Of a stretch of 64,000 bases of DNA, positions 28,569 to 43,043 are shown piece by piece. Each line of letters starts with the position of its first letter. The stretch's first letter is position 1. The notes under the pieces were generated by a model, which was not told where the DNA came from, ran no database searches, and saw only the letters and a list, made by a program, of their open reading frames with translations. Origin of the DNA: Thioalkalivibrio sp. ALE31 (GTDB lineage Bacteria; Pseudomonadota; Gammaproteobacteria; Ectothiorhodospirales; Ectothiorhodospiraceae); contig NZ_KB905020.1 of NCBI RefSeq assembly GCF_000377405.1, positions 310,001-374,000 on the forward strand, in the 5' to 3' direction. A program made the translations under genes and the position numbers.

Positions 28569-31244
28569 ATGAATCCTGCGGGCAGCACCCCCGGCGAACT
28601 CGATACCCCGGCCTTCACCGCCGACTGGGGCGAGGACTACCAGCGCCTGAGCCGCAACCCGGGGAACATCGCCCTGTTCCGGGACCGCCGCCGCGCCATC
28701 CTGGAGCAGCAGTACCAGGGCTTTCGCGACGGCATGCCCATCGCCGAACTGATCCATGGCCATGCCCGGCGCATCGACGAGCTGCTCAAGCTGATCTGGG
28801 CGCAGAAGGGCCTGGCCGACGACGACCGGCTGTGCCTGATCGCAGTCGGGGGCTACGGGCGCGGCGAACTGCATCCCGCCTCCGACATCGATATCCAGAT
28901 CATCCTCGAGGGCGAGCACGACCGTGCCCGCTTCGACCGCATCAGCGATTTCGTCACCTTCCTCTGGGATATCGGCATCGAAGTCGGACACAGCGTGCGC
29001 AGCATCGAAGACTGCACCCGCGAGGCGCGCGACGACATCACCGTTGCGACCAACCTGATCGAGGCCCGCTACCTGGCCGGTCATCTGGGTCTGTTCAACG
29101 ACTTCCGCCAGGCCATCGAACCCGATCGCATCTGGGACTCGCGCAGTTTCTACGCCGCCAAGCTGGCGGAACAGCAGGCCCGGCATCGCCGCTTCGGCGA
29201 GACCGCCTACCGCCTGGAGCCAAACGTCAAGGAAGGCCCTGGCGGGCTGCGCGACATCCAGATGATCGGATGGGTCACCAAGCGCCACTACGGCGCCGAG
29301 CGCATCGAGGAACTGGTCTCGCTGGGCTTCCTGCGCGAGGGCGAATTCCGCGAGATGATGGAGGGCCAGAACTTCCTCTGGCGCGTGCGCTTCGCCCTGC
29401 ACATGCTGGCCGGCCGCCGCGAGGACCGCCTGCTGTTCGACCTGCAGCGCCAGCTGGCCAACACCTTCGGCTTCGTCGACCAGAACCACAACCGGGCGGT
29501 CGAGCAGTTCATGCAGCGCTACTTCCGCACCATCAACGACCTCGAGCGCCTGAACGAGCTGCTCCTGCAGCACTTCAACGAGGCCATCCTCGACAATCCC
29601 GAAGACCTGCAGGACCCGGTCCGCATCCATCAGCGCTTTCAGGTTCGCGGCGGCTACCTGGAGGCCGCCCACGACCAGGTCTTCATGATCTACCCCCCGG
29701 CGCTGCTGGAAGTCTTCCGCCTGCTGCAGGAGCACCCCGAGATCCAGGGCATACGGGCCTCCACCATCCGCCTGATCCGGGCGCATCGCCACCTGATCGA
29801 CGGTCATTTCCGGCGCAACCCGGTCTGCCGGGAGCTGTTCATGGACATCCTGCGGGCCCCGCGCGGCATCACCAGCCAGCTCCGCCGGATGAACCGCTAT
29901 GGCGTGCTGGGCAACTATCTTCCGGCCTTCGGCCGCATCATCGGGCGCATGCAGTATGACCTCTTCCACGCCTACACCGTGGACGAACACACCCTGAACG
30001 TGGTGCGCAACGCGCGCCGGCTCGCCCTGCCCGAGTTCGCCCACGAACAACCCCTGGCGCACCGCATCCACGCGAGCCTGGAACGGCCGGAACGCCTGGT
30101 CCTGGCCGCGCTGTTTCACGACATCGCCAAGGGTCGCGGCGGCGACCACTCCGAGCTGGGCGCCCACGACGCCCTGCACTTCTGCCAGCAACACGGGCTC
30201 TCGGACGCCGATGCCGGGCTGGTCGCCTGGCTGGTGCGCTCGCACCTGCTGATGTCCCTCACGGCCCAGCGCAAGGACATCTCGGACCCCGAGGTGGTCC
30301 TCGGCTTCGCACGGGAGGTCGCCACCGGCGAACGCCTGGACTTTCTCTATCTGCTCACGATTGCCGATATCCGCGGCACCAACCCGGAGCTATGGAACAG
30401 CTGGAAGGATGCCTTGCTCCAGACCCTCTACCACGCCACGCGCAACGTCCTCGATCGTGGCCTGGACACCCCGCCGGACATGGACGAGCAGATCCGCCAG
30501 ACGCGCGTCGAGGCGCTCGAGCGGCTGCAGCAACAGGGTTTCGATCCGGAACAGGCGCGTCGGCTGTGGGATGAACTCGACGACGAGTATTTCCTCCGCC
30601 ATTCCGCCGACGAGATCGCCTGGCATGCCCAGGCCCTGCTCCCGCTGGAACCGGACGCGCTCCCGCTGATCCTGGTACGCCCCAAGACCTCGCGCGGCAG
30701 CACCGAGATCTTCGTCTATGCCGAGGATCACCCGCAGATCTTCGCCCGCATCACCAGCGCATTGACCCAGCTCGGGCTCGACATCGTAGACGCCCGCATC
30801 ATCACCACGGCGGGTGGCCGCACCCTGGATACCTTCCTGGTCCTGGAGAGCGGCGGCGGCCAGACCGTCGATGCCGGCTATCGCGCCGACGAGATCCGCC
30901 ACGCTCTGGAGCAGGAACTCGCCCGCCAGGGCCGCACCCCCAACCCCGCCACGCGTCAGCTACCGCGACGCCTCAAGCACTTCGACGTGGACACCCGCAT
31001 CGAATTCGAGCCGGCGCCCGGGGGCCACGCCACGCGCATGCGCCTGCGGGCCCTGGATCGACCGGGCCTGCTGTCCACCATCGGGCATATCCTTGGCGAG
31101 CAGGGTATCGACGTCCGCACCGCCCGCATCGCCACGGCCGGCGAACAGGTCGAAGACAGCTTCCTGCTGAGCCGACCCGGGCGCACCCCGCTGGACGCCG
31201 AGGCACAGACCCGACTGCGCGAGGCCCTGCTTCAGGCCCTCTGA
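28569..31244 (+). CDS. glnD: Bifunctional uridylyltransferase/uridylyl-removing enzyme GlnD
   Basis: 891 residues. GlnD is the primary nitrogen sensor: it uridylylates PII proteins when glutamine is low and removes UMP when it is high. The nucleotidyltransferase motif GGYGRGELHPASDIDI lies at 94-109. The HD hydrolase domain shows LFHDIAKGRGGDH near residue 515. Two C-terminal ACT domains start near 712 (IFVYAEDHPQIFARI) and 822 (LRALDRPGLLSTIG) and bind glutamine. All domains are present, so both activities are expected. A hairpin repeat lies just after the stop. Confidence 0.97.
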   Translation: MNPAGSTPGELDTPAFTADWGEDYQRLSRNPGNIALFRDRRRAILEQQYQGFRDGMPIAELIHGHARRIDELLKLIWAQKGLADDDRLCLIAVGGYGRGELHPASDIDIQIILEGEHDRARFDRISDFVTFLWDIGIEVGHSVRSIEDCTREARDDITVATNLIEARYLAGHLGLFNDFRQAIEPDRIWDSRSFYAAKLAEQQARHRRFGETAYRLEPNVKEGPGGLRDIQMIGWVTKRHYGAERIEELVSLGFLREGEFREMMEGQNFLWRVRFALHMLAGRREDRLLFDLQRQLANTFGFVDQNHNRAVEQFMQRYFRTINDLERLNELLLQHFNEAILDNPEDLQDPVRIHQRFQVRGGYLEAAHDQVFMIYPPALLEVFRLLQEHPEIQGIRASTIRLIRAHRHLIDGHFRRNPVCRELFMDILRAPRGITSQLRRMNRYGVLGNYLPAFGRIIGRMQYDLFHAYTVDEHTLNVVRNARRLALPEFAHEQPLAHRIHASLERPERLVLAALFHDIAKGRGGDHSELGAHDALHFCQQHGLSDADAGLVAWLVRSHLLMSLTAQRKDISDPEVVLGFAREVATGERLDFLYLLTIADIRGTNPELWNSWKDALLQTLYHATRNVLDRGLDTPPDMDEQIRQTRVEALERLQQQGFDPEQARRLWDELDDEYFLRHSADEIAWHAQALLPLEPDALPLILVRPKTSRGSTEIFVYAEDHPQIFARITSALTQLGLDIVDARIITTAGGRTLDTFLVLESGGGQTVDAGYRADEIRHALEQELARQGRTPNPATRQLPRRLKHFDVDTRIEFEPAPGGHATRMRLRALDRPGLLSTIGHILGEQGIDVRTARIATAGEQVEDSFLLSRPGRTPLDAEAQTRLREALLQAL

Positions 31245-31281: not shown

Positions 31282-32040
31282 TCAGCGCCCGCGCGCCTCC
31301 AGCGGCAAGGGTTCCGGCGCCGCCGGCGAGGCCTCGCCCAGCAGGCGCGTTTCAAAGTCCGTCAGCACGCTGAATTCGACCCGTCGGGAGGCCCGGCGGT
31401 CCTCCTCGCCCTGTGCATCCAGCACCCGCCGCGAAGATGACAGGCCCACGGCGGCGACCCGCGAGCGAAACCAGTCTGCCTCCTGCAGGGGTTCCAGCTG
31501 GTAGGCATATTCCAGCACCGCCCGCGTGCGCCGCTGGCTAAGATCCATGTTGCCGAAATAAGCCTCCAGGGGATCGTCGCTCCCGGCCCACTCACTCGAC
31601 GTGTGGCCTTCGATCCGCACCTCCCGGATCACCTCGGCGAACGGGCGCAGCTGTTCGGCATAGCGCGGCATGAAATCCGCCAGAATGGCCTCGAATCGCG
31701 GCCGGATGGAGGATGAACTGCGCTCGAACAGGACCTCCGGCTCACGGAAACGCAGCGTCAGGCTGTCGCGATCCAGCTCCGCGTTCCAGCGCGGCAGATC
31801 CTCCCGGAACTCCTCCTCCAGCACCGAATAGATCGCCGCGCGCAGCGCGGCCGCCTCGTTGCGGACCTCGGTGTGGGCCGCGCTCTCGCGCTCCACCTGC
31901 ACCATGTGCAGCAGGGCCAGGAACAGGAAGATCATCATCAGTGCGGCCATGAGGTCCGCCACCGCCAGCCAGTGCGAGCCCTGATCGGCCTCGTTCCCGC
32001 CACCCGGCCCTCGGCGGCGACGCGCGAGCCAGGCCAGCAT
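31282..32040 (-). CDS. MotB/OmpA-family stator protein, ZorB-like
   Basis: 252 residues. A single N-terminal membrane helix WLAVADLMAALMMIFLFLALL carries Asp29 in the position of the proton-binding Asp of MotB-type stators. The C-terminal half is an OmpA peptidoglycan-binding domain with VRIEGHTSS and the LSQRRTRAVLEYA helix found in ZorB-type proteins. The start ATG shares one base with the stop of the upstream MotA-like gene (TGATG), so the two are a coupled pair. No zorC, zorD or zorE follows; the next gene is glnD, convergent. The role is therefore a proton-driven inner-membrane motor of unknown output. Confidence 0.75.
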   Translation of the reverse strand: MLAWLARRRRGPGGGNEADQGSHWLAVADLMAALMMIFLFLALLHMVQVERESAAHTEVRNEAAALRAAIYSVLEEEFREDLPRWNAELDRDSLTLRFREPEVLFERSSSSIRPRFEAILADFMPRYAEQLRPFAEVIREVRIEGHTSSEWAGSDDPLEAYFGNMDLSQRRTRAVLEYAYQLEPLQEADWFRSRVAAVGLSSSRRVLDAQGEEDRRASRRVEFSVLTDFETRLLGEASPAAPEPLPLEARGR

Positions 32041-33101
32041 CAGCTACGCCCGCCCGCGGATACGGCCGGAGCGGCGCGCTCGGCACCCCAGCGACCCTCG
32101 GCCGCATGGCCCGCCTGCACGGCATTCTCGATACTCTCGAGCATCGCCTCCAGGCGAGCGTCCATCGCCGGGAAGGCCTCGGTGGCGCGGTCGCGCAGCG
32201 CCGCGATACTGCCCAGAAGCGCCTCCAGCTCCACCGTCTCCCGGCGCAGGCTGGACAGTGTCGATTCCTGGTCCTCCACGTGCCGGGTGATCTGCAGGGC
32301 CTGGCCGGTCATCCGCTCCAGGGTCTGCTCGGTTTGCTCCACCCCGGCCCGCGCCTGGTCGAACGCGCGGTGCAGGCCGTCCATCTGCTGACGGTACTGC
32401 TCCTGCCATTCCACCAGCCGGGCCACCGAGTCATCCAGACGCCGGAAGTTCTCGCCGAACTGCTCGCCCAGGCGGCTGTTGAAGTCGTGAATCACCCGCT
32501 CCAGGGCCTCCACCAGATGCCCGCTGCTCATCTCCGTGATGCGCTCGGCCATGCCGTCCAGGGTCCGGGTCAGTTCGCGGTGCTGCTGTTCCAGCCGCGC
32601 ATCGAGGCGCTGATCCAGCTTGCGCACCGCCTCGCCCACGGCGAGCGTGGCGTCGCGCTGCTGCGTCGCCAGTTCTGCGTCACGGGATGGCCCGCTCGCG
32701 GCGCGTGTGGGCGAGGATTCGGTGGCCGATACCGGCGCCGGCGCCGGCGCGATCACCTGCACGATGCGCAGCACGGCGGCCAGCAGGATGCCCACGATAC
32801 TGGTCACGAAGGCCAGCTTGAGACCCTCCAGCAGTGCAGGGATGCTGGCCTCGACGCGGCCGGCATCGAAATCCAGCAGGCCAATGGCAACACCCAGAAA
32901 GGTCCCGAGGATCCCGAGGGTCGTCAGCAAGGTGGGCGCTGCCCCCTGAAAGGCCTCCGCACGGCGCAGGGCGGTGGCCGCCAGGCCCGCCAGGAACAAC
33001 CCGAACAGCAACAGCGCAAACAGCCCAATCACCGTCAACGGACTCAAGTCCTGCAGGCTGGCCAGGAGGGCTTCGGCCACCCGATCCAGAATTCCGCTCA
33101 T
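32040..33101 (-). CDS. MotA/ExbB/TolQ-family motor protein, ZorA-like
   Basis: 353 residues. Three membrane helices are visible: one near residues 20-45 (LFALLLFGLFLAGLAATAL), one with TLGILGTFLGVAIGLLDF and one with LKLAFVTSIVGILLAAVL; the last two carry the motor-core pattern of ZorA proteins. A long, mostly helical cytoplasmic tail with heptad-like Gln/Glu/Arg segments follows (about 140-340), shorter than in ZorA of complete Zorya systems. The ATG at 33101 is chosen for a GGAGG ribosome site seven bases away; an ATG at 33107 is too close to it. It pairs with the ZorB-like gene. Confidence 0.75.
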   Translation of the reverse strand: MSGILDRVAEALLASLQDLSPLTVIGLFALLLFGLFLAGLAATALRRAEAFQGAAPTLLTTLGILGTFLGVAIGLLDFDAGRVEASIPALLEGLKLAFVTSIVGILLAAVLRIVQVIAPAPAPVSATESSPTRAASGPSRDAELATQQRDATLAVGEAVRKLDQRLDARLEQQHRELTRTLDGMAERITEMSSGHLVEALERVIHDFNSRLGEQFGENFRRLDDSVARLVEWQEQYRQQMDGLHRAFDQARAGVEQTEQTLERMTGQALQITRHVEDQESTLSSLRRETVELEALLGSIAALRDRATEAFPAMDARLEAMLESIENAVQAGHAAEGRWGAERAAPAVSAGGRS

Positions 33102-33391
33102 TTTCATTCCTCCAGGCCGCGGGCACTTCACGCCCCACGCCGTATTGCGAACCTCTCGCAACAATACCTAGCAAGAATAGAGCCAGCCCCACCAATCCGC
33201 GTCAGCAAGCGCCCCATCCGCCCGGCAAGGCCATCCCGAAGCACAGAACGACAAATTCTCGACACACAAGGCCACGGGATTCTCGCCTGCCTCGACTAAC
33301 GCATGTCCATTAATTGACGCATCACGAAGGGACGGAATGAACACCCCACCCCGTCTACTCAATGAATCCCTGCAAGAAATCGAACTAACCC

Positions 33392-34372
33392 ATGAACCCC
33401 TGGTTCACCCGCACACCTCGCCGCGCCGGCGAAGTCCAGCTCCGCCGACGCACGCCGATACGCGTCAGCATGATGCTAACGCTGCTGGGGCTTTGTGCAT
33501 GGGGGCAGGCCGGTGCGCTGGAAGAGACACCGCCCCAGTCGGCCACGCAGTCGCCGCCGCTTGTGTTCGGACTCCAGCCATTCGCCAGCCCCCCGGCGCT
33601 TTTCCAGCGCTACGCCCCCCTGCGTGACTGGCTGGCGAACGAAACGGGCCATCCCACTAGGCTTGAGTCCGCACGCGACCTTGCCACACTGGTTGCCCGC
33701 GGGCGCGACGAGCGTTACGACCTCATGCTCGTGGCGCCCCATGTGGTCCCCCTGCTGCTGGATCACGCGCCCTATCACCTTGTCGCCCGCACCGAGGAAC
33801 AGCTCGCGATGGTGCTTTTGGTTCGCCCCGGGGATTCGATCGCATCCATATCCGACCTGGCCGGCCGAACCATCGCCGCTCCATACGAGGAAAGCCGTGC
33901 CGCGACCCTGGCGCGAGGCGTCACGGATGCGCAGGATTGGCCAGACCCGCCCGGCCCCCCGCGTTATCGGTACTACCATCACAACAGTGCGGCCATCGCC
34001 GCGTTCCAGCGCGAGCTCACCGACGCCCTGGTCATGATCATCGAGGGCACCGTGCTGCCCGCCCCGCCCCCTCCGAACCCGCGCCGACCACGACATCTCT
34101 CCCTGGCAGACGGCAGTCTGGTGCGAATCCTGGCGCAGTCCGAGCGCTTTCCCGGCCTGGCGCTCCTGATACACGAGCGGCTCGCCGAACAAGTACCCGA
34201 CCTGGACGCCCGCGTGACCTCCATGCCGCGCGACGAGGCGGAAGCGACACTGCTACGCCAGATCGGTCACCGCAGCTTCGTCTCTACACACGCCGGGGAA
34301 TACACGAGCTTCCGCGGCGCACTCGAGTCGATGGAAAGGCAGCTCGAACTGGAGACACCCAACCCGCCATAA
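33392..34372 (+). CDS. PhnD-like periplasmic solute-binding protein
   Basis: 326 residues. An arginine-rich N-terminus and hydrophobic stretch MMLTLLGLCAWGQAGA form a signal peptide. The mature protein opens with LVFGLQPFASPPALFQRYAPL and contains MLVAPHVVPLLL and FRGALESMER, the pattern of the PhnD/SsuA/transferrin-like family that binds phosphonates, phosphate or other small anions. No transporter genes are beside it. The next gene, 240 bases on and in the same direction, is a membrane GGDEF-EAL sensor, so this protein probably feeds that sensor; this is inference. The ligand is unknown. Confidence 0.8.
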   Translation: MNPWFTRTPRRAGEVQLRRRTPIRVSMMLTLLGLCAWGQAGALEETPPQSATQSPPLVFGLQPFASPPALFQRYAPLRDWLANETGHPTRLESARDLATLVARGRDERYDLMLVAPHVVPLLLDHAPYHLVARTEEQLAMVLLVRPGDSIASISDLAGRTIAAPYEESRAATLARGVTDAQDWPDPPGPPRYRYYHHNSAAIAAFQRELTDALVMIIEGTVLPAPPPPNPRRPRHLSLADGSLVRILAQSERFPGLALLIHERLAEQVPDLDARVTSMPRDEAEATLLRQIGHRSFVSTHAGEYTSFRGALESMERQLELETPNPP

Positions 34373-34613
34373 CGCACCGTTCGCAACCACCAGGTTACGG
34401 GCTGCCATGAAAGGCCTCCGGATGAACCATCATCACGGATGGGCATCCTTCGACCAGTCCCGTAGAATGACGGGGTTTGCATCATTCTCGTCCCGCCATC
34501 GACACGGGCGGACACGCGACCCGGGTACTCCTCATGACCTCGTCCGGCCTGGCTCGAACCGGCTTCGGCCCCGCCTTAATGGCCTCGCTCCAAAAAGGCG
34601 GGCCCCAATCCGC

Positions 34614-37406
34614 ATGCGTCTGAATTTCGCCTGGCAGATCATCATCGGGACCGTCGCGATCCAGGTCGCGATGGTGGCGGTGCTGATGTTCAGCGGCATC
34701 TCCCAGGTCCAGCAGAACCAGTCGCAGATGCTGGAGCGCTTTGCCGAGCAGCAGGGGCGCCTCCTGTCCAGCGCGCTGACCCCGGGGCTGGCCTACGCCG
34801 ATCCGGCGATGCTGCAGGACCTGCTGGACCTGGTCGCGGACGACTCCCACGTGCTCTACGCCGTGGTGCTCGATGCCCAGGACCAGCCCATGGCCTCCGT
34901 GGGCATCTCGCCGGAGGCAATCCCCGAATCCGGCGACCGCATTCGCACTGCCCCTGGACAGATCGAGATCCTCCGGGACATCGAACTGGCCGGACAGCCC
35001 CTGGGCACCCTCGCGGTCGGGTATTCGACGGACGCCATCGATGCCCTGTCCGCCGACCTCCTGCAGCGCAACGTCCTGCTGGCCATGGGCGTTCTGGTAC
35101 TGTCGATGGTGGCCGCGATTGTGTTCAGTCTGGTGATCACCCGCCGGCTGCGCCTTTTGAATCAGGGCGCGAAGGCCCTGCAGGTCGGCCGCCTGGACCA
35201 TCGCATCCCGATGCGCTCGAACGACGAATTCGGCGACCTCGCGCGCACCTTCAACGACGTCGCCGCCCATCTCGGTACAACCCAGACCACGCTGGAACAG
35301 CAAAACCAGCAACTCAACCGCTCGGTCGCGCGCCTGGAATCCATGCTGGGCGGGGCCAATGCCATCCTGTGGGAGGCCAACCCCGCCACTCACGAATGGG
35401 AGTTCGTCGCCGGCGACACCCGCCACCTGCTCGGCTTTCCCGCGCGCAATCTGGGCCGCGGCGAACTGCGGGCCCGCCACATCCATCCGAGCGACCTGCC
35501 GCGGGTCCAGAACGCCGCCCGCGAGAGCCGCAACCAGTCACGCACCGTGGACTACCGCTTCGCGCACCGCGACGGCCAGTGGATCTGGCTGCGCGACATC
35601 CTGTCCTGGGCCACGGACAGTGACGGCCGCGAGAGCCTGCGCGGACTGACCCTGGATATCACCGCCCATCGCCGCACCACCGATGCCCTGGCCGAAAGCG
35701 AGAATCGCTACCGCGATGTCGTGGACCACATCTCCGAGGTCATCTTCCGGACCGATGCGGACGGTCGCTGGACCCTCCTGAATCCCGCCTGGGAACACCT
35801 CACCGGCTTCAGCGTGGAGGAGACCCTGGGCCGCCCGATGTGCGACTTCGTGGCCCCGGAGGACACCGAGGACGCCCGCAGCTTCTGCGCCACCCTGCTG
35901 GAGGGCGGGTCCCATGCCCAGTCCGAGGAGATCCGCCTGCGCACCCGCGAAGGCGACATCCGCTGGGTCAGCGTCTATGCCAGTGCCCGGTTCAATGAGC
36001 GCGGCGAGGTCACGGCGACCTTCGGCACGATGACCGACATCTCCGACCGCAAGCAGGCCGAGGACGAGATCCGCCGTCTCGCCTTCTTCGACGGCCTGAC
36101 CCATCTGCCCAACCGTACCCTGCTGCACGATCGACTGAGCCAGACGCTCGGGAACACCGAGCGCAGCCATTTGCACGGCGCGCTCCTGTTCATCGACCTC
36201 GACAACTTCAAGGACATCAACGACACCCTGGGGCATGCCGTGGGCGACGACCTGCTGCGGCAGGTCGCCGAGCGCATGCAGGACTCGGTCCGCGAGGCCG
36301 ATACCCTGGCGCGCCTTGGGGGCGACGAGTTCGTGGTCATCCTCAACGACCTCCACCCCGACCCGGCGCGGGCCGCGACCCAGGCGGAAGCGGTGGGACG
36401 CAAACTGATCGACCTCCTGCGCGACCCCTTCGAGCTCGCCGGACAGAAACGCCATGTCACCCCGAGCATCGGCGCCACGCTGTTCAGCGGCCGCAGTCTG
36501 GGCGTGGAAGAGATCCTGAAACAGGCGGACCTGGCGATGTATCGGGCGAAGAACGCCGGGCGCAACACCGTCCGCTTCTATGACCCCGACCTGCACCGCG
36601 CGGTCGAGGCCCGCTTCGAACTCGAGAGCGAGCTGCGCCATGCGCTCGATCAGGACCACTTCAGCGTGCACTACCAGCCGCAGGTGGATGCCTCCGGCGC
36701 GGTCATGGGCGCCGAGATCCTGCTGCGCTGGATGCACGAAACCCGTGGCGCGATCTCCCCCGCCGAGTTCATTCCGGTCGCCGAACAGACCGGCCTGATC
36801 GTCCCGATCGGACGCAAGGTCATGCGCGCGGCCTGCGAGCAACTGGCCGCCTGGCAGCACCAGCCGGCCTTCCGTGACCTGACGCTGTCGGTCAACGTCA
36901 GCGCCCGCCAGTTCCGCCACCGCCACTTCGTCCGCGACCTGGCGGCGATCCTGGACGAAACCGGCGCCCCCGGGGAACGCCTGAAACTGGAACTGACCGA
37001 GAGCATGTTGCTGGAGAACGTGGAAACGGTCATTGCCCACATCGAGGAACTGCGCACGCTCGGGATCGAATTCTCCCTGGACGACTTCGGCACCGGTTAC
37101 TCGTCGCTGGCCTACCTCAAGCGCCTGCCGCTGGCCCAACTAAAGATCGATCAATCCTTCGTGCGCGATGTGCTGGATGACCCGAACGATGCCGCGATTG
37201 CCCAGATGGTGGTCAATCTGGCCCACACCCTGGACCTCGACGTGATCGCCGAAGGGGTGGAGAACGACGATCAGCGCGCCTTCCTGTTCGGCCTGGGCTG
37301 CCGTCATTTCCAGGGCTACCTGTACGGTCACCCCGACACCCTGGCCGTCCTGGAGGCACAGGTCCTCCGCCAGGCGGGAAACCGCCACCCGGCCGCCCAC
37401 CGATAA
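34614..37406 (+). CDS. Membrane PAS-PAS-GGDEF-EAL c-di-GMP turnover protein
   Basis: 930 residues from the ATG at 34614, which places the first membrane helix at the N-terminus (8-28); the frame runs further upstream without domain content. A periplasmic sensor region, a second helix (about 154-176), HAMP, PAS (about 240-355), PAS (about 365-475), GGDEF and EAL domains follow. The cyclase motif is GGDEF (569-573) with an RxxD inhibition site (560-563). The phosphodiesterase domain keeps EILLRW, LELTESM, DDFGTGYSS and KIDQSFV, so both halves may work. The upstream PhnD-like protein is the likely periplasmic partner. Confidence 0.9.
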   Translation: MRLNFAWQIIIGTVAIQVAMVAVLMFSGISQVQQNQSQMLERFAEQQGRLLSSALTPGLAYADPAMLQDLLDLVADDSHVLYAVVLDAQDQPMASVGISPEAIPESGDRIRTAPGQIEILRDIELAGQPLGTLAVGYSTDAIDALSADLLQRNVLLAMGVLVLSMVAAIVFSLVITRRLRLLNQGAKALQVGRLDHRIPMRSNDEFGDLARTFNDVAAHLGTTQTTLEQQNQQLNRSVARLESMLGGANAILWEANPATHEWEFVAGDTRHLLGFPARNLGRGELRARHIHPSDLPRVQNAARESRNQSRTVDYRFAHRDGQWIWLRDILSWATDSDGRESLRGLTLDITAHRRTTDALAESENRYRDVVDHISEVIFRTDADGRWTLLNPAWEHLTGFSVEETLGRPMCDFVAPEDTEDARSFCATLLEGGSHAQSEEIRLRTREGDIRWVSVYASARFNERGEVTATFGTMTDISDRKQAEDEIRRLAFFDGLTHLPNRTLLHDRLSQTLGNTERSHLHGALLFIDLDNFKDINDTLGHAVGDDLLRQVAERMQDSVREADTLARLGGDEFVVILNDLHPDPARAATQAEAVGRKLIDLLRDPFELAGQKRHVTPSIGATLFSGRSLGVEEILKQADLAMYRAKNAGRNTVRFYDPDLHRAVEARFELESELRHALDQDHFSVHYQPQVDASGAVMGAEILLRWMHETRGAISPAEFIPVAEQTGLIVPIGRKVMRAACEQLAAWQHQPAFRDLTLSVNVSARQFRHRHFVRDLAAILDETGAPGERLKLELTESMLLENVETVIAHIEELRTLGIEFSLDDFGTGYSSLAYLKRLPLAQLKIDQSFVRDVLDDPNDAAIAQMVVNLAHTLDLDVIAEGVENDDQRAFLFGLGCRHFQGYLYGHPDTLAVLEAQVLRQAGNRHPAAHR

Positions 37407-37407
37407 C

Positions 37408-37426
37408 AATTCGATTAAATCGAATT
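37408..37426. promoter_or_regulatory. AT-rich palindrome upstream of wrbA
   Basis: AATTCGATT and AATCGAATT form a perfect 9-bp dyad with one base between, two bases after the GGDEF-EAL stop. It stands out from the GC-rich surroundings. A -10-like TATAAA lies at 37457-37462, so the dyad sits about where an activator would bind; it could also be a weak terminator of the upstream gene. Confidence 0.4.
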
Positions 37427-37456
37427 TTAAGGGGCGTTTTTCGGCATTTTCTTTCG

Positions 37457-37462
37457 TATAAA
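37457..37462 (+). promoter_or_regulatory. Possible -10 element for wrbA-doxX
   Basis: TATAAA in an AT-rich patch 54 bases before the wrbA start. No matching -35 is visible, which fits activation from the palindrome at 37408. Confidence 0.35.
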
Positions 37463-37515
37463 TCGGATCTACGCTGGCGGGTATTCAATTCCAGCCAAAC
37501 GGAGACCCGTCGACC

Positions 37516-38136
37516 ATGAGCACCAAGATCCTGATCCTGTACTACTCCACCTGGGGCCACATCGAGCAGATGGCGGAGGCCGTGGCCCGGGGGGCCCGCG
37601 AAGTCCCGGATACCGAGGTCACGATCAAGCGCGTCCCGGAACTGATGCCGGACGAGGTAGCCCGCAACGCCGGCGCCAAGCTCGACCAGGCCGCACCCAT
37701 CGCGAAGCCGGAGGAACTGGCGGACTACGACGCCATCATCATCGGCACCCCGACCCGCTTCGGCCGCATGGCCGCCCAGATGGCCAACTTCCTCGACCAG
37801 ACCGGCGCCCTGTGGTTCGGCGACAAGCTGGTCGGCAAGGTCGGCAGCGTGTTCAGCTCCACGGCATCGCAGCATGGCGGCCAGGAGACGACCCTGGTCT
37901 CCACCATCGTTAACCTGCTGCACTACGGCATGACCGTGGTTGGTCTACCCTACACCGAGAAGCGCATGCTCGACGTTAGCGAAGTCTGCGGCGGTACGCC
38001 CTACGGTGCCACCACGCTGGCGGCCGGGGACGGCTCGCGCCAGCCGAGCGAGAGCGAACTGGGCATGGCCGCCTCCCAGGGCCGACACGTTGCGGAGGTC
38101 GCCCGCGCCCAGCGGCTTGGACGCGAGGCCGGCTGA
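37516..38136 (+). CDS. wrbA: NAD(P)H:quinone oxidoreductase WrbA
   Basis: 206 residues of the flavodoxin-like WrbA family. The FMN phosphate loop is [12 protein letters not shown]; the central [13 protein letters not shown] and the late [14 protein letters not shown] are typical. It reduces quinones by two electrons, avoiding semiquinone radicals. A GGAGA ribosome site precedes the ATG. A DoxX-type membrane protein follows, a pairing often linked to quinone or electrophile stress. Confidence 0.93.
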
Positions 38137-38156
38137 CCGAACCGGTCCATTTTCCA

Positions 38157-38182
38157 GGGCCCCCTCGTTCTGGCGGGGGCCC
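38157..38182 (+). terminator. GC hairpin between wrbA and doxX
   Basis: An 8-bp stem GGGCCCCC/GGGGGCCC with a ten-base loop starts 20 bases after the wrbA stop. No T-run follows, so it may reduce rather than stop transcription into the doxX-like gene. Confidence 0.4.
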
Positions 38183-38260
38183 AGCCGAATCGGGCCCGGC
38201 GGCATCGCCCCGGGCCCCAACGCGGGCCACTGCCCGCCCTGCTACAAGGAGAGTATCGAC

Positions 38261-38653
38261 ATGGACCACACCCTCGACGACAGCGGCAAGCTGATCCTGC
38301 GACTGGCGCTCGGCATCATGATCCTGCTGCACGGCATCGCGAAGATCACCGGTGGCATCAGTGGCATCGAAGGCATGCTGGCCGACGCCGGACTCCCGAC
38401 CATCCTGGCCTACGGGGTGTATATCGGCGAGATCCTGGCGCCGATCCTGGTCATCCTCGGACTCTATGCACGCATCGGCGCCGTACTCATCGCGATCAAC
38501 ATGGTCTTTGCCATCGCTCTGGCGCATGCCCACGAGGTCTTCCAGCTCACCGGCCACGGCGGCTGGGCCCTGGAACTGCAGGGCATGTTCCTGTTCACGG
38601 CCATCGCGCTGGCCCTGACCGGCCCCGGCCGTTTCGCGATCAACCGCCAATAA
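38261..38653 (+). CDS. DoxX-family membrane protein
   Basis: 130 residues with four membrane helices, matching the DoxX family (LILRLALGIMILLHGIAKI at the start; GMLADAGLP; GEILAPILVILGLYARIGA). AAGGAGAG lies upstream of the ATG. DoxX relatives act in membrane redox complexes or in oxidative-stress defence; the exact role here is unknown. Placed 124 bases after wrbA in the same direction, it may share quinone-related regulation. Confidence 0.85.
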   Translation: MDHTLDDSGKLILRLALGIMILLHGIAKITGGISGIEGMLADAGLPTILAYGVYIGEILAPILVILGLYARIGAVLIAINMVFAIALAHAHEVFQLTGHGGWALELQGMFLFTAIALALTGPGRFAINRQ

Positions 38654-38660
38654 CCCTAAA

Positions 38661-38678
38661 GGAGACGCTGATTGAATC
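38661..38678. repeat. Dispersed GGGAAACGCTGAT-type repeat, copy 3
   Basis: GGAGACGCTGATTGAATC lies eight bases after the doxX-like stop. It is closest to copy 1 at the end of lpxB (GGGAGACGCTGATTTAATC). No second arm is seen. Confidence 0.55.
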
Positions 38679-38691
38679 GCGATGTCTTGAC

Positions 38692-39016
38692 CTCCGCTCA
38701 GACATCCAGCGCCTCTGATCCCGCGAAAACCCTCTCCACTCGGCGCGACGACAACGGGGGGGTCAAGGTCAAGACAACGGTGGTCCCGACGGTCTTGCCA
38801 GTAGGTGAAGGCTGGGTCTTCGGACATCTTGGGCACGCACGGCCTTTGGCCGTTGCGTGCCGCGCCCGCCAGCGGGCGCCGGGGGCTTTCAGGCGGCAAT
38901 GCATAGGGTCAGACAGGAATGTTGGACTAGCTCCTGTTTTGACCTTCCTCCCCCGTATGGAGCCCCTCGCGGAGGGCGTGATGGGCCGGGAGAAGGCGCT
39001 GGATGTCTGAGCGGAG
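38692..39016. repeat. Element bounded by a perfect 22-bp inverted repeat
   Basis: Positions 38692-38713 and 38995-39016 are exact reverse complements (22 of 22). The 281 bases between hold further dyads: 38832-38844 with 38848-38861, and 38862-38869 with 38872-38879. No open frame has recognisable domains. The whole gap 38654-39326 is non-coding; this part could be a small non-autonomous mobile element or a structured RNA. Confidence 0.6.
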
Positions 39017-39098
39017 CCGGAGGCGCAGCGAGTTCAGCGCCGCCGGCCCAGCGCGTCCGGAGCGAGGTTCCCGGGCGAAATCCGGGTGCCCTTCTTTG

Positions 39099-39128
39099 GG
39101 TCCTTTCTTGGGCAAGCAAGAAAGGACC
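39099..39128. repeat. Perfect 12-bp hairpin in non-coding gap
   Basis: GGTCCTTTCTTG and CAAGAAAGGACC are separated by six bases. The stem lies outside the 22-bp-bounded element and about 200 bases before the efflux adaptor gene. It could terminate read-through from either side. The remaining bases to 39326 show no gene. Confidence 0.5.
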
Positions 39129-39326
39129 TCGGGGCGCGCTGGCGAGTCAGCGCCGGGCAGTATGTGGACCGAAGGCACCGTAAACACCGGAGGACGAACC
39201 AGGACCAGCCTCACAACGGTTGAGATGAACGGTAAGTCAGGTGATAACCGATATGCGTCCAGCGCGATCTGCGCCACACCGGGTGATGGGGAAGCGCTGG
39301 ATGGCGGGATTTGCGAGACTGACGCT

Positions 39327-40520
39327 ATGGCGATGAAAAAGCGAATTACGGTTGGGCTGATCGTGCTGGCGGGGGTGGCCGCGCTGGTGTGGGCGCTGCG
39401 CCCGCAGCCGGTTCCGGTGTCGCTGACCACGGTCGAGGCCGGCCCGTTCGAGGAGACCGTACGCGAGGAAGGCCGCACGCGGCTGCGCGACACCTTTACC
39501 GTGTCGGCGCCGATCGCCGGCTTCCTGCATCGCGTCGAGCTGGAAGAGGGCGACGCAGTCGAGCTCGGCGATACGCTGTTCCGTATGGAGCCCCTGCCGA
39601 CCCCGGCACTGGATGTGCGCTCGCGCGAACAGGCACGCGAGAACCTCGCCGCTGCGCGGTCGCGCCTGCAAAGCGCCGAGGCGAATCTCGAGAATCTGCG
39701 GGCCGAGGCTCGCTTCGCCGAATCCGAGTACCGCCGGCACCTGGAGCTGTTCGAGCGCGGGGCGGTCTCGGCCACCGAGGTGGAGCGTATGGAGACCGCG
39801 CGTGACCGCGCGCGCTCGGCGGTGCGCGCCGGCGAGTCCGCGGTAGAGGTCGCGCGCAGCGAGATCGAGGGGGCCCGGATCGTGCTGGAGATCGCCAGCG
39901 GCCAGATGCCGGAATCCGAGGCCGAGACCCTGTCCGTGCGCTCGCCAGCCACGGGTGTGGTGCTGGAGCGCCATCGCTGCTGCGAGGGCACGATCGGGGC
40001 CGGCGAGCCGGTGCTGGTCGTGGGCGATCTCGATGATCTCGAGGTGCAGGTGGACCTGCTGTCCATGGACGCGGTGCGCGTGGTGCCGGGCATGCGCGTG
40101 CGCCTGACCGACTGGGGCCGCGATGCCGAACTGGAGGGCACCGTACGCCGGGTACAACCGTTCGGCTTTACCAAGATCTCTGCGCTGGGCGTGGACGAGC
40201 AGCGCGTGCCGGTGATCGTCGACCTCGACGCGGTGGAGGCCCGCATGGCCGGGCTGGCAGTGGGCTACCGCGTGGAGGCCGAGTTCCTGCTGTGGGAAGG
40301 GGATGAGGTGCTGCAGGTCCCGACCAGTGCGCTGTTCCGGGACCGCGGCGAGTGGTCGGTGTTCGTGGTCGAGGACGGCCGTGCCGAGCCGCGCCGGGTC
40401 GAGGTGGGGCGTCGCTCGGGTTTCGCCACACAGATCCTTGAGGGCCTGGAGGCGGGCGAGCGTGTCGTCACCCGCCCGGGGGACCGGGTGCGGGCCGGCA
40501 CGCGGGTTACCGAGAACTGA
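39327..40520 (+). CDS. Periplasmic efflux adaptor (HlyD/RND membrane-fusion family)
   Basis: 397 residues. One N-terminal membrane helix (about 7-24), then the biotinyl-lipoyl halves (VSAPIAGFLHRVELEEGDAV and, later, VRSPATGVVLERH), a coiled-coil hairpin between them (about 95-200), and a beta-barrel and membrane-proximal domain. Such adaptors bridge inner-membrane pumps and outer-membrane channels. No RND or ABC pump gene and no TolC gene is nearby; hrpB follows by nine bases. The start is the ATG at 39327; the upstream frame to 39003 is repeat-rich and lacks a ribosome site. Confidence 0.85.
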   Translation: MAMKKRITVGLIVLAGVAALVWALRPQPVPVSLTTVEAGPFEETVREEGRTRLRDTFTVSAPIAGFLHRVELEEGDAVELGDTLFRMEPLPTPALDVRSREQARENLAAARSRLQSAEANLENLRAEARFAESEYRRHLELFERGAVSATEVERMETARDRARSAVRAGESAVEVARSEIEGARIVLEIASGQMPESEAETLSVRSPATGVVLERHRCCEGTIGAGEPVLVVGDLDDLEVQVDLLSMDAVRVVPGMRVRLTDWGRDAELEGTVRRVQPFGFTKISALGVDEQRVPVIVDLDAVEARMAGLAVGYRVEAEFLLWEGDEVLQVPTSALFRDRGEWSVFVVEDGRAEPRRVEVGRRSGFATQILEGLEAGERVVTRPGDRVRAGTRVTEN

Positions 40521-40529
40521 CCGCTGTAG

Positions 40530-43043
40530 ATGGCCACAGAGTTGAATGAGGCGCCGCAGGCCCGGGCGCTGGAAGATCTGCTAACCCCCCTGGATGCCGC
40601 GCTGCAGACGCGCGGTGCCGCCGTGCTGGTGGCCGAACCCGGTGCCGGCAAGACCACCCGCGTCCCGCTGCATCTGGCCGCCTCCAGCCCCGAGGATCGC
40701 GTGATCGTGCTGCAGCCGCGCCGGCTGGCCGCCCGCATGGCGGCGACCTACATGGCCGGGCAGCTCGGTGAAGCGGCCGGGCAGACGGTCGGCTACCGCG
40801 TGCGCGACGAGCAGAAGGTCTCGGATCGCACCCGGGTGGAGCTGGTCACCGATGGCCTGTTCCTGCGGCGCATCCAGGGCGACCCGCTGCTGGAAGGTGT
40901 CGGCACCGTGGTCTTCGACGAATTCCACCTGCGCCGGCCCGAGGCCGAGCTGGCGCTGGCCTTTGCCTTGCAGGTGCGTCGGCTGCTGCGCCCGGAGCTG
41001 CGCATCGTGGTGATGTCGGCGACCCTCGACGACGAGGCCGTGGCGCGGCTGCTGGCCGGTCCGGAGGGGGATGCCGTGCCGGTGCTGCGCGCGCGCGGGC
41101 GGCAGTTTCCGGTGGAGGTCCGTTATGTCCCGACGGCGAAGGATGCGCCGCTGGCCGACGGCGTGGCGCAGGCGGTGCGGGACGCGCTGGCGGCGGAGAC
41201 GGGCTCGATCCTGGTCTTCCTGCCCGGCGAGCGCGAGATCCGCGAGGTGGCCACGCGGCTGGGCGAGGAGATGGATACCCCTGCCGGCCCGGCGCAGATC
41301 GCGCCGCTGTTCGGCCGGCTGCCGGCGCAGGAGCAGGCCCGGGCCGTGCGCCCGGCGCCCGCGGGCGAGCGCAAGGTGGTGCTGGCGACCGACATCGCCG
41401 AGACCAGCCTGACCATCGAGGGCGTGCGCGTGGTGATCGACGCGGGGCTCTCCCGCGAGCCGCGCTTCGATGCGGCGACCGGGCTCTCGCGGCTGGTGAC
41501 GCTCCCGGCCTCGAAGGCCGCCGCCGAACAGCGGGCCGGGCGTGCCGGTCGCACCGAGCCCGGCGTAGCGATCCGCCTGTGGTCGCGGGTCGACGAGGTC
41601 GCGCGCCCGGACTACGCGACCCCGGGGATGCAGCAGGTGGACCTGCTGCCGTTGGCCCTGGAGCTGGCCGGCTGGGGCGAGGCGGTGGCCGAGCTCGACT
41701 GGCTGGAGCCGCCGCCCGCGCAGGGCTTGGCCTCCGCGCAGGCCGTACTCGCGGAACTGGGTGCGGTGGATGCCGACGGGCGGATGACCGGGCACGGCCG
41801 TGCCCTGCTGCGCCTGCCGACGCACCCGCGCCTGGCCCACATGCTGTTGCGGGGCCGGGAGCGGGGGCTTGCGCGCCTGGCCTGCGAACTGGCGGTGGCC
41901 GTGGAAGAACCGGGTGTGGCCGGGCCGGAGGCGCCGCTGGAGCTGGGTGCGCGCCTGGAGCACGCGCGGCGCTCGGGTAGCCGGGTCTGGCAATCCGGCC
42001 TGCGGCGTCTGGAACAGGCGCTGGCACGAGTCGGGGAGCGCCCCGCGGGTACGGAGGCGGCACTGGACGAAAGCACGGCGCTGGGCGTGCTGGCGGCGCT
42101 GGCCTGGCCGGAGCGTATCGCGCGTCGCCGCGGCGAGGTGGCCGGGCGCTTCGTGATGGGGAACGGCCGCGGCGCGTGGCTGCCGGAGCGCGAGCGTCTG
42201 GCGCATGCCGACTACCTGGTCGCGGTGGATTGCACGGATGCCGACCGCGAGGCCCGCATCCGCTGTGCGGTGATGCTGGACCTGGCGGCACTGGAGCAGG
42301 AGGCCCCGGAGCTCTTCCACCGCGAGATGCGCTGCGACTGGGTGGAGGATGGCTCGCGGCTGGAAAACGCGCGGGTTCGGCGGATCGGCACGCTGGTGGT
42401 GGAGCGGCAGATGGTCGTGCTGGACGATCCCGCCGCCACCATCCCGCGCTGGTGCGAACGGCTGCGCCGCGAGGGCCTTGCGCTGCTGCCCTGGGATGAT
42501 GCGGCAACCCAGCTGCACGCCCGCATCCAGTTGCTGCACGAGACCCTGCCGGAGTCTGGCTTTCCGGATCTGCGCGACGCTGCGCTGCTGATGACCCTCG
42601 AGGAGTGGCTGGGGCCGTATCTGGCCGGGATCACGCGGCTCCGGGATCTGGAGCGGCTGGATCTGGCGGCGATCCTGCGCGCGCGGCTGGACTGGGAGCG
42701 CCAGCAGCAACTGGAGCGGGAGGCGCCGGCACGGATCGAGGTGCCCTCCGGCTCGGCCCACCATGTCGACTACACGCAGGACCCGCCAGTGCTGGCGGTC
42801 AAGCTGCAGGAGCTGTTCGGCCTGGGCGAGACGCCCCGGGTGGCGGGCGGCCGCGTGGCGCTGGTGCTGCACCTGCTGTCGCCGGCGCGGCGTCCGGTGC
42901 AGGTCACCCAGGATCTCGCCAGCTTCTGGGAGAACGGCTATCCGGAGGTGCGCCGCGAGCTGAAGGGGCGCTATCCGAAGCACCCCTGGCCGGAGGATCC
43001 GTGGAATGCGCCGGCCACGCGGCATACGAAGCGGCGTGGGTAG
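40530..43043 (+). CDS. hrpB: ATP-dependent helicase HrpB
   Basis: 837 residues, the usual length for HrpB, a DEAH-type RNA helicase. Walker A is EPGAGKTTRVPL, Walker B is FDEFHLRRPE, motif III reads VVMSATLDD, and motif VI reads QRAGRAGRTEPG. The HA2 and HrpB-specific C-terminal domains follow, ending with the YPKHPWPEDPWNA segment typical of the family. The cellular role of HrpB is not well defined. It starts nine bases after the efflux adaptor, so it may be co-transcribed with it. Confidence 0.95.
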   Translation: MATELNEAPQARALEDLLTPLDAALQTRGAAVLVAEPGAGKTTRVPLHLAASSPEDRVIVLQPRRLAARMAATYMAGQLGEAAGQTVGYRVRDEQKVSDRTRVELVTDGLFLRRIQGDPLLEGVGTVVFDEFHLRRPEAELALAFALQVRRLLRPELRIVVMSATLDDEAVARLLAGPEGDAVPVLRARGRQFPVEVRYVPTAKDAPLADGVAQAVRDALAAETGSILVFLPGEREIREVATRLGEEMDTPAGPAQIAPLFGRLPAQEQARAVRPAPAGERKVVLATDIAETSLTIEGVRVVIDAGLSREPRFDAATGLSRLVTLPASKAAAEQRAGRAGRTEPGVAIRLWSRVDEVARPDYATPGMQQVDLLPLALELAGWGEAVAELDWLEPPPAQGLASAQAVLAELGAVDADGRMTGHGRALLRLPTHPRLAHMLLRGRERGLARLACELAVAVEEPGVAGPEAPLELGARLEHARRSGSRVWQSGLRRLEQALARVGERPAGTEAALDESTALGVLAALAWPERIARRRGEVAGRFVMGNGRGAWLPERERLAHADYLVAVDCTDADREARIRCAVMLDLAALEQEAPELFHREMRCDWVEDGSRLENARVRRIGTLVVERQMVVLDDPAATIPRWCERLRREGLALLPWDDAATQLHARIQLLHETLPESGFPDLRDAALLMTLEEWLGPYLAGITRLRDLERLDLAAILRARLDWERQQQLEREAPARIEVPSGSAHHVDYTQDPPVLAVKLQELFGLGETPRVAGGRVALVLHLLSPARRPVQVTQDLASFWENGYPEVRRELKGRYPKHPWPEDPWNAPATRHTKRRG

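Follow-up and report, generated by a model that had tools for sequence, protein, structure and literature searches.

The gene pair and its chromosomal site

The window, a stretch of 64,000 nucleotides from the genome of Thioalkalivibrio sp. ALE31, contains two adjacent genes that encode a ZorA-like and a ZorB-like protein (Table 1). The TGA stop codon of zorA and the ATG start codon of zorB share base 32040, so that the MotA-like and the OmpA/MotB-like gene overlap by one base, as stated in the first-pass annotation of this locus. The same overlap occurs in 4 of 14 Thioalkalivibrio relatives, and a 4-base overlap is found in most of the others. The TLGILGTFLG core, the aspartate within ADLM (D29) and the OmpA domain described in that annotation are all present, based on the sequence and on Pfam matches, and the structure model of ZorA contains predicted helices at residues 2–18, 21–45, 49–76, 83–117, 138–211 and 217–343, in agreement with the helical tail that had been proposed. 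The flanking genes are likewise as first described, with the PhnD-like label supported by Pfam and the other neighbor being a gene that, from its sequence, we take to be glnD.

Table 1. Features of the zorA/zorB locus and its flanks (positions in the window)
Feature	Position	Strand	Remarks
zorB-like gene	31282–32040	minus	252 aa (P0002); motor Asp in a single N-terminal membrane helix, followed by a peptidoglycan-binding domain of OmpA type
ZorB OmpA domain, residues 104–217	31390–31731	minus	Pfam OmpA, 4.4e-9; contains H146 and S148, with R219 just after
ZorB Asp29 codon, ion-carrying aspartate	31954–31956	minus	equivalent to D24 of E. coli ZorB II
zorA-like gene	32040–33101	minus	353 aa (P0001); membrane helices followed by a cytoplasmic rod of two helices
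ZorA shortened-rod distal end, residues 281–330	32112–32261	minus	conserved; candidate output surface
ZorA pore core, residues 50–114	32760–32954	minus	includes T67 and S101, which probably form the Ser/Thr ring; aligned to 8vvi
glnD-like neighbor (presumed)	28569–31244	plus	adjoins the pair; context, outside the system
PhnD-like periplasmic binding protein gene	33392–34372	plus	Pfam Phosphonate-bd, 1.4e-25; divergent from zorA; context, not counted in the system

The pair is carried by 15 of 30 Thioalkalivibrio genomes, ALE31 included, and it adjoins glnD in every one of the 15 (ALE31 and 14 others). Eight of the 15 genomes that lack it are at least 96% complete and seven are 58–80% complete, the latter including one (G018) in which the contig ends at the site of the pair. 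Other genes follow glnD in the five pair-less genomes that were read, and in four of these (L255–L258) a helicase-like gene, found at 40530–43043 in ALE31, lies only 1.0–1.7 kb past glnD. In ALE31 and the rest of the pair-bearing subclade the two are separated by a block of approximately 9 kb (31282–40529 in ALE31) that contains zorBA, the PhnD-like gene, a GGDEF/EAL gene and others. The proximity of the helicase-like gene to glnD in pair-less genomes therefore indicates that this block was gained or lost at one place. The PhnD-like gene is 33–63% identical to the gene at the same place in relatives, compared with 81–95% for glnD and 64–91% for the GGDEF/EAL gene, and may have been replaced or be fast evolving.

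Relationship to the Zorya type II motor

Profile searches match the ZorA-like protein to the PADLOC ZorA2 model (E = 1.2e-62) and the ZorB-like protein to ZorB2 (E = 3.1e-79). The best match in the PDB for both proteins is 8vvi, the Zorya type II ZorAB from Sulfuricurvum kujiense (E = 6.7e-29 for ZorA and 4.5e-43 for ZorB). Chance similarity is far exceeded in all of these matches. Foldseek searches with the structure models also match 8vvi, with E = 1.2e-4 for ZorA (pLDDT 79.6, pTM only 0.37) and E = 3.0e-16 for ZorB against chain 8vvi_B (pLDDT 85.4). Results from NCBIfam place both proteins far under the equivalog cut-offs (ZorA2, 163 bits versus 700; ZorB, 209 bits versus 400), suggesting that they are divergent members of the type II motor family. 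The general motor domains score poorly, with Pfam MotA_ExbB at 14.9 bits (cut-off 22.9) and MotB_plug at 17.6 bits (cut-off 24), and MotA_N is not found among the best 25 of 29 Pfam matches. Judged by profiles and models, the pair encodes a Zorya type II-like motor whose nearest solved relative is 8vvi. The resemblance to the Zorya motor noted in the first-pass annotation thus stands and can be sharpened to type II. Clustering with flagellar, Tol or gliding motors, against which that annotation had set its proposal, was sought with profiles and predicted folds; both favor ZorAB II, and an identity as one of these other motors was rejected.

Similar to the type II ZorAB of S. kujiense, the pair possesses the motor sequences and fold, the motor aspartate, the Ser/Thr positions, the proximal rod and the wall-binding His, Ser and Arg. 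In contrast to type II systems, the pair has no zorE, its ZorA stops before a tip segment that is present in 8vvi, a Leu occupies the position of E. coli ZorB R230 (Arg or Lys in 45 of 64 other rows), the NCBIfam cut-offs are not reached, and the genes occupy one fixed place in the chromosome. Zorya types I and III share distant ZorA and ZorB homology with the pair and give weaker matches than type II, although one PADLOC ZorB1 model still reaches 169 bits. The flagellar stators MotAB and PomAB share the general motor principle and an OmpA-type anchor, whereas their sequence match is weak and the pair differs in its long rod and in its locus in Thioalkalivibrio. ExbBD and TolQR have the MotA/TolQ/ExbB pore core in common with the pair, at a Pfam score under the cut-off, but the pair has an OmpA anchor and a rod, and Foldseek matches to these proteins are weaker than those to ZorA.

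Phylogeny and distribution

A scan of 84,980 species genomes yielded at least 558 stretches that encode a relative of the pair, the best 80 of which were used. Nineteen of these 80 loci (8 from Thioalkalivibrio, 11 from Chromatiaceae) have a ZorB that is 62–91% identical to that of ALE31, while the remaining 61 are at most 51% identical. No ZorE was found in the 19 stretches, one of which (L107) ends 0.3 kb past zorB and is too short to show a downstream ZorE. In contrast, a ZorE match is present in the stretch for 62 of 64 loci outside the clade (the 61 and three plasmid loci). The phylogeny recommended in the first-pass annotation was run on ZorB alone, using 87 of 129 rows chosen by the author, and places the pair in a clade of its own (support 100/100) within which Thioalkalivibrio (99/98) and Chromatiaceae (94/74) separate. 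Both groups are placed in Chromatiales by NCBI. To the extent of the available text, the open-licence literature on Zorya and ZorAB contains no description of this clade; the PADLOC authors report having looked for orphan genes without success (PMC8565338), and ZorAB was omitted from a stator phylogeny (PMC12505986).

It had been suggested that such a pair is the ancestor from which Zorya took its motor, in which case Zorya II would have arisen by the gain of ZorE and the rod tip. The root of the tree is weak, with an outgroup branch of approximately 5 changes per site. The AU test does not reject placing the root on the stem of the clade itself (p 0.40), consistent with an ancestral motor. 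The outgroup root, weak as it is, places the clade nested, and among the best 80 loci members of the clade are confined to Thioalkalivibrio and Chromatiaceae, whereas ZorAB II with ZorE is found in several phyla. An ancestral position is consequently not favored and seems quite improbable.

To represent the Chromatiaceae group, 146 genomes were sampled from the family group that contains Thiorhodococcus minor. A clade-type ZorB (62–70% identity) is carried by 27 of these, a 42–51% type by 8, and both types by 3. In two of the three, Thiocystis violacea and Thiospirillum jenense, a long ZorA precedes the second ZorB and ZorE comes after it, which amounts to a complete Zorya II beside the pair; the third is G507, and ZorE status was checked for the first two only. 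The coexistence of the pair with a complete Zorya II indicates that the pair constitutes a second system, distinct from Zorya II and not a broken form of it. Elsewhere in the scan, a 4.2-kb contig binned into a Heimdallarchaeota MAG carries a ZorA-ZorB-ZorE set (L133:663–3960), possibly through contamination.

Conserved residues and selection

The ion-carrying D29 of ZorB is invariant in all 44 rows of the clade and in all 64 other ZorB rows of the alignment. ZorB H146, S148 and R219, equivalent to E. coli H141, S143 and R215, are invariant in 44/44 clade rows, and ZorA T67 and S101 are invariant across 42. At the position of E. coli R230, 43 clade rows have Leu and one has Ile, compared with Arg in 34 and Lys in 11 of the 64 other rows. 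All four E. coli ZorB II residues are reported to be required for wall binding and defense (PMC11890865). In ZorA the mean fraction of the top residue is 0.79–0.80 over residues 281–320 versus 0.20–0.58 over residues 121–180. Pairwise dN/dS values of the ALE31 genes against 14 relatives are 0.04–0.28 for zorB, 0.09–0.30 for zorA and 0.06–0.21 for glnD (Nei-Gojobori, with the ALE31 sequence as sole reference and dS up to 1.6 in zorA). The pair is under purifying selection in Thioalkalivibrio, and with its key residues intact the motor core looks to be a working one.

These results bear on two alternatives. The first is that the pair is a decaying relic of Zorya II, as the missing ZorE and tip might suggest. 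Both ALE31 genes are open, selection on them is purifying and the active residues are invariant, and this explanation was rejected as hardly credible. Exceptions to an intact pair are a frameshifted zorA at L111 and a Thiorhodovibrio MAG in which the clade zorB (L103:9968–10717) has no adjoining zorA, through real loss or an assembly fault. The second is a self-sufficient minimal defense module, another of the possibilities first raised, in which the motor itself would halt infection, for example by an ion leak upon damage to the wall by phage. Retention of the motor Asp and of three wall-binding residues is compatible with such a module, and an ion-channel abortive model for ZorAB has been proposed (PMC8565338). 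The same source terms ZorAB insufficient for defense, however, and loss of any Zorya II component, ZorE included, is reported to have abolished protection against T7 (PMC11890865). The conservation and context of the pair also resemble those of a housekeeping gene, and minimal defense is rather improbable.

Searches for effectors

The absence of zorE noted in the first-pass annotation was confirmed by profile searches, which find no ZorE near the pair or elsewhere in the ALE31 genome. A profile derived from 14 ZorE sequences, some of them decayed, has no match at E ≤ 0.01 in any of the 15 pair-bearing Thioalkalivibrio genomes, and an unlinked ZorE, one of the effectors that annotation had advised looking for, was accordingly rejected as the effector in these genomes. 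Applied to pair-less Thioalkalivibrio genomes, the same profile gives matches to the HNH part in 3 of 8, and in ALE31 the sole match of the PADLOC ZorE model is a generic one, confined to the HNH portion of a 156-aa frame (E = 5.7e-6). Two control genomes gave positive matches at approximately 1e-107. No ZorE is found in the 29 Chromatiaceae-group stretches that carry the pair, and nothing beyond generic HNH matches is found in 9 of 11 pair-bearing Chromatiaceae genomes. In the other two a strong match lies away from the pair: in Thiospirillum directly after the second ZorB (6.6e-92), and in Chromatium okenii LaCa as a partial match (6.7e-48) with no second ZorB found. A search of the ALE31 genome for a type I motor found nothing, one ZorC model gave no match in a search in which no control gave a signal either, and none of the 8 proteins neighboring the pair matches a PADLOC defense model.

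A defense module could in principle use an effector that is unrelated to ZorE, encoded elsewhere and recruited by the shortened rod. The conserved end of the rod suggests a binding partner, and the patchy distribution among species would suit a defense gene. Against this, the pair occupies its fixed site beside glnD in 15/15 genomes, PADLOC matches among its neighbors number 0/8, it coexists with a complete Zorya II in two genomes, and no candidate partner emerged from the searches for ZorE and ZorC (the latter without a responding control). Defense through an unlinked effector is thus unlikely.

The ZorA rod tip and ZorE

Alignment reveals that ZorA proteins from ZorE-bearing loci end in a conserved segment, the tip, that is absent from the clade of the pair. 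Scored on the half of the set unused in its building, a tip profile detects the segment at the protein level for 59 of the 60 loci whose ZorE is intact, with the 60th (L132) encoding it in a shifted frame, and in 10/10 loci with dead or truncated ZorE. In the clade it finds 0/43 (best E 3.2e-3), the L111 test having used the shortened frame of its frameshifted zorA. ZorE state was assigned by the HH...C..C/H-H pattern, giving 62 intact, 10 dead or truncated and 8 without a match among the 80 loci; a contig end or a probable frameshift truncates some of the 10 (L167, L143). Of the 8 loci first scored without ZorE, L170, L184 and L188 have the tip and a ZorE-like remnant beside zorB (the likeness in L184 being by alignment, as the profile gave no match), L179, L181 and L187 have neither tip nor ZorE, L191 is without the tip on a contig that ends 60 bases past zorA and is too short to show ZorE, and L147 is disrupted. 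Every examined locus with both a zorA and a protein derived from ZorE therefore encodes the tip.

On the tree, ZorE and the tip change together in 3 independent contrasts, which is suggestive and not significant (sign test p 0.25). The labels for the contrasts were set by hand, with L103, L114, L147 and the outgroup left out, and 3 contrasts remain when L191 is dropped. The ZorA of 8vvi is short, at 378 aa, and retains the tip, indicating that shortness alone does not account for its absence from the pair. In the available text of PMC11890865 and PMC13192584, ZorAB is described as bringing ZorE to the membrane upon infection and rod mutations as abolishing defense, and the same portions name no docking site for ZorE on ZorAB. 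Motors that are jointly without ZorE and the rod tip point to the tip as this dock, and we infer that it may be the ZorE docking site.

A number of related gammaproteobacterial loci show broken HNH domains, N-terminal remnants or a motor only. In L177:7611–8489, L178:9020–9904, L180:7131–8009, L182:2935–3732 and L184:3264–3989, a short ZorA and ZorB are followed by a ZorE-like protein; the HNH His pair is lost in all five (HH to HY or further gone, as in L184). From their sequences these ZorE-like proteins appear to be nuclease-dead, kept with the motor and the ZorA tip. The ZorE-like proteins at L131:10690–11268, L155:10720–11235, L170:7133–7606 and L188:7267–7770 consist of an N-terminal part without the HNH domain, with the ZorA tip kept; in L188 just a short remnant precedes a Lys/Ala-rich tail. 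A second motor-only ZorAB (L179:3266–4818, L181:8426–10068) occurs elsewhere in the tree in two genomes of one family, with a very short ZorA (276–306 aa) and near a gene that is presumably elongation-factor-like. At L187:4092–5276, ZorA has an extra N-terminal region and ends right after the membrane helices, with no rod. As judged from these sequences, the clade of the pair is the clearest case of a wider trend of ZorE decay.

The Chromatiaceae neighborhood

Neighboring genes were compared at 29 loci (11 named, and 18 from the Chromatiaceae-group sample). In 11 of these motA-motB immediately precedes zorA in the same orientation, within 0.3 kb, and it is found upstream at 1.0 kb in L250 and at 6.0 kb in L252. 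Two further loci have genes nearby that we take to be fli genes, without motAB, bringing the motAB or flagellar context to 15/29 overall; L112 and L247 have less than 0.8 kb upstream of zorA, too short to show motAB. An HDOD gene follows the pair in 16/29 loci. Pfam supports the motA, motB and HDOD labels as well as that of a sigma-54 regulator at L104. The motAB linkage may reflect one ancestral arrangement, and since shared ancestry could explain it, it is a lead only and no proof of function.

The linkage in the Chromatiaceae group, directly after motA-motB in 11/29 loci and near motAB or flagellar genes in 15/29, might be taken to indicate an auxiliary stator or a switch part of the flagellum. 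The sequence is nevertheless that of ZorAB II, with flagellar stator matches far weaker, and the pair has no flagellar neighbors in the Thioalkalivibrio loci. The long ZorA rod also has no known counterpart in MotA. A flagellar part is thus very improbable.

Proposed function

The pair is kept at a fixed site without ZorE and without the rod tip, so that the motor probably now serves a different purpose. Of the possibilities first raised, a motor that stands alone and drives a different output agrees best with the data, the output itself being a matter of conjecture. The explanation that we favor, at somewhat better than even chances, is that the pair is a Zorya II-derived motor core that was uncoupled from ZorE, became chromosomally fixed and was domesticated for a non-nuclease output. 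Stand-alone defense and an ancestral motor are less likely than this uncoupled motor.

It is proposed that the proteins assemble as ZorA5:ZorB2 into a peptidoglycan-anchored, ion-driven rotary motor. ZorB would bind the wall and respond to the state of the wall or envelope. Ion flow past Asp29 would then turn or bend the ZorA pentamer and rearrange the rod, and the conserved end of the shortened rod (residues 281–330) could act on a partner encoded elsewhere. ZorE and the tip would have been lost rather than never gained. We think that the most likely output is envelope or cell-surface sensing tied to motility or a second messenger, because the pair often follows motA-motB and adjoins HDOD genes in Chromatiaceae.

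Several observations weigh against an uncoupled, domesticated motor. The motAB linkage is missing in Thioalkalivibrio and from roughly half of the 29 loci of the Chromatiaceae group. The distribution of the pair is patchy, as that of defense genes would be (27/146 in the Chromatiaceae group, and missing from 8 Thioalkalivibrio genomes at least 96% complete). A strong ZorE match lies elsewhere in 2 of 11 pair-bearing Chromatiaceae genomes, and the coupling of tip and ZorE, at 3 independent contrasts and p 0.25, is suggestive.

A broader proposal, tentative and with the balance somewhat against it, is that Zorya II motors have repeatedly been freed from their nuclease and domesticated, with this clade as the most complete case, a fixed, wall-sensing rotary motor with a non-defense output, and with the tip as the dock for ZorE recruitment. 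For annotation, the finding is a warning, as Zorya models match such pairs despite the absent effector. If the pair is domesticated, an immune machine would have been converted to serve a cellular function, and motors of this kind would have one more use in addition to motility, nutrient uptake, envelope upkeep, gliding and defense.
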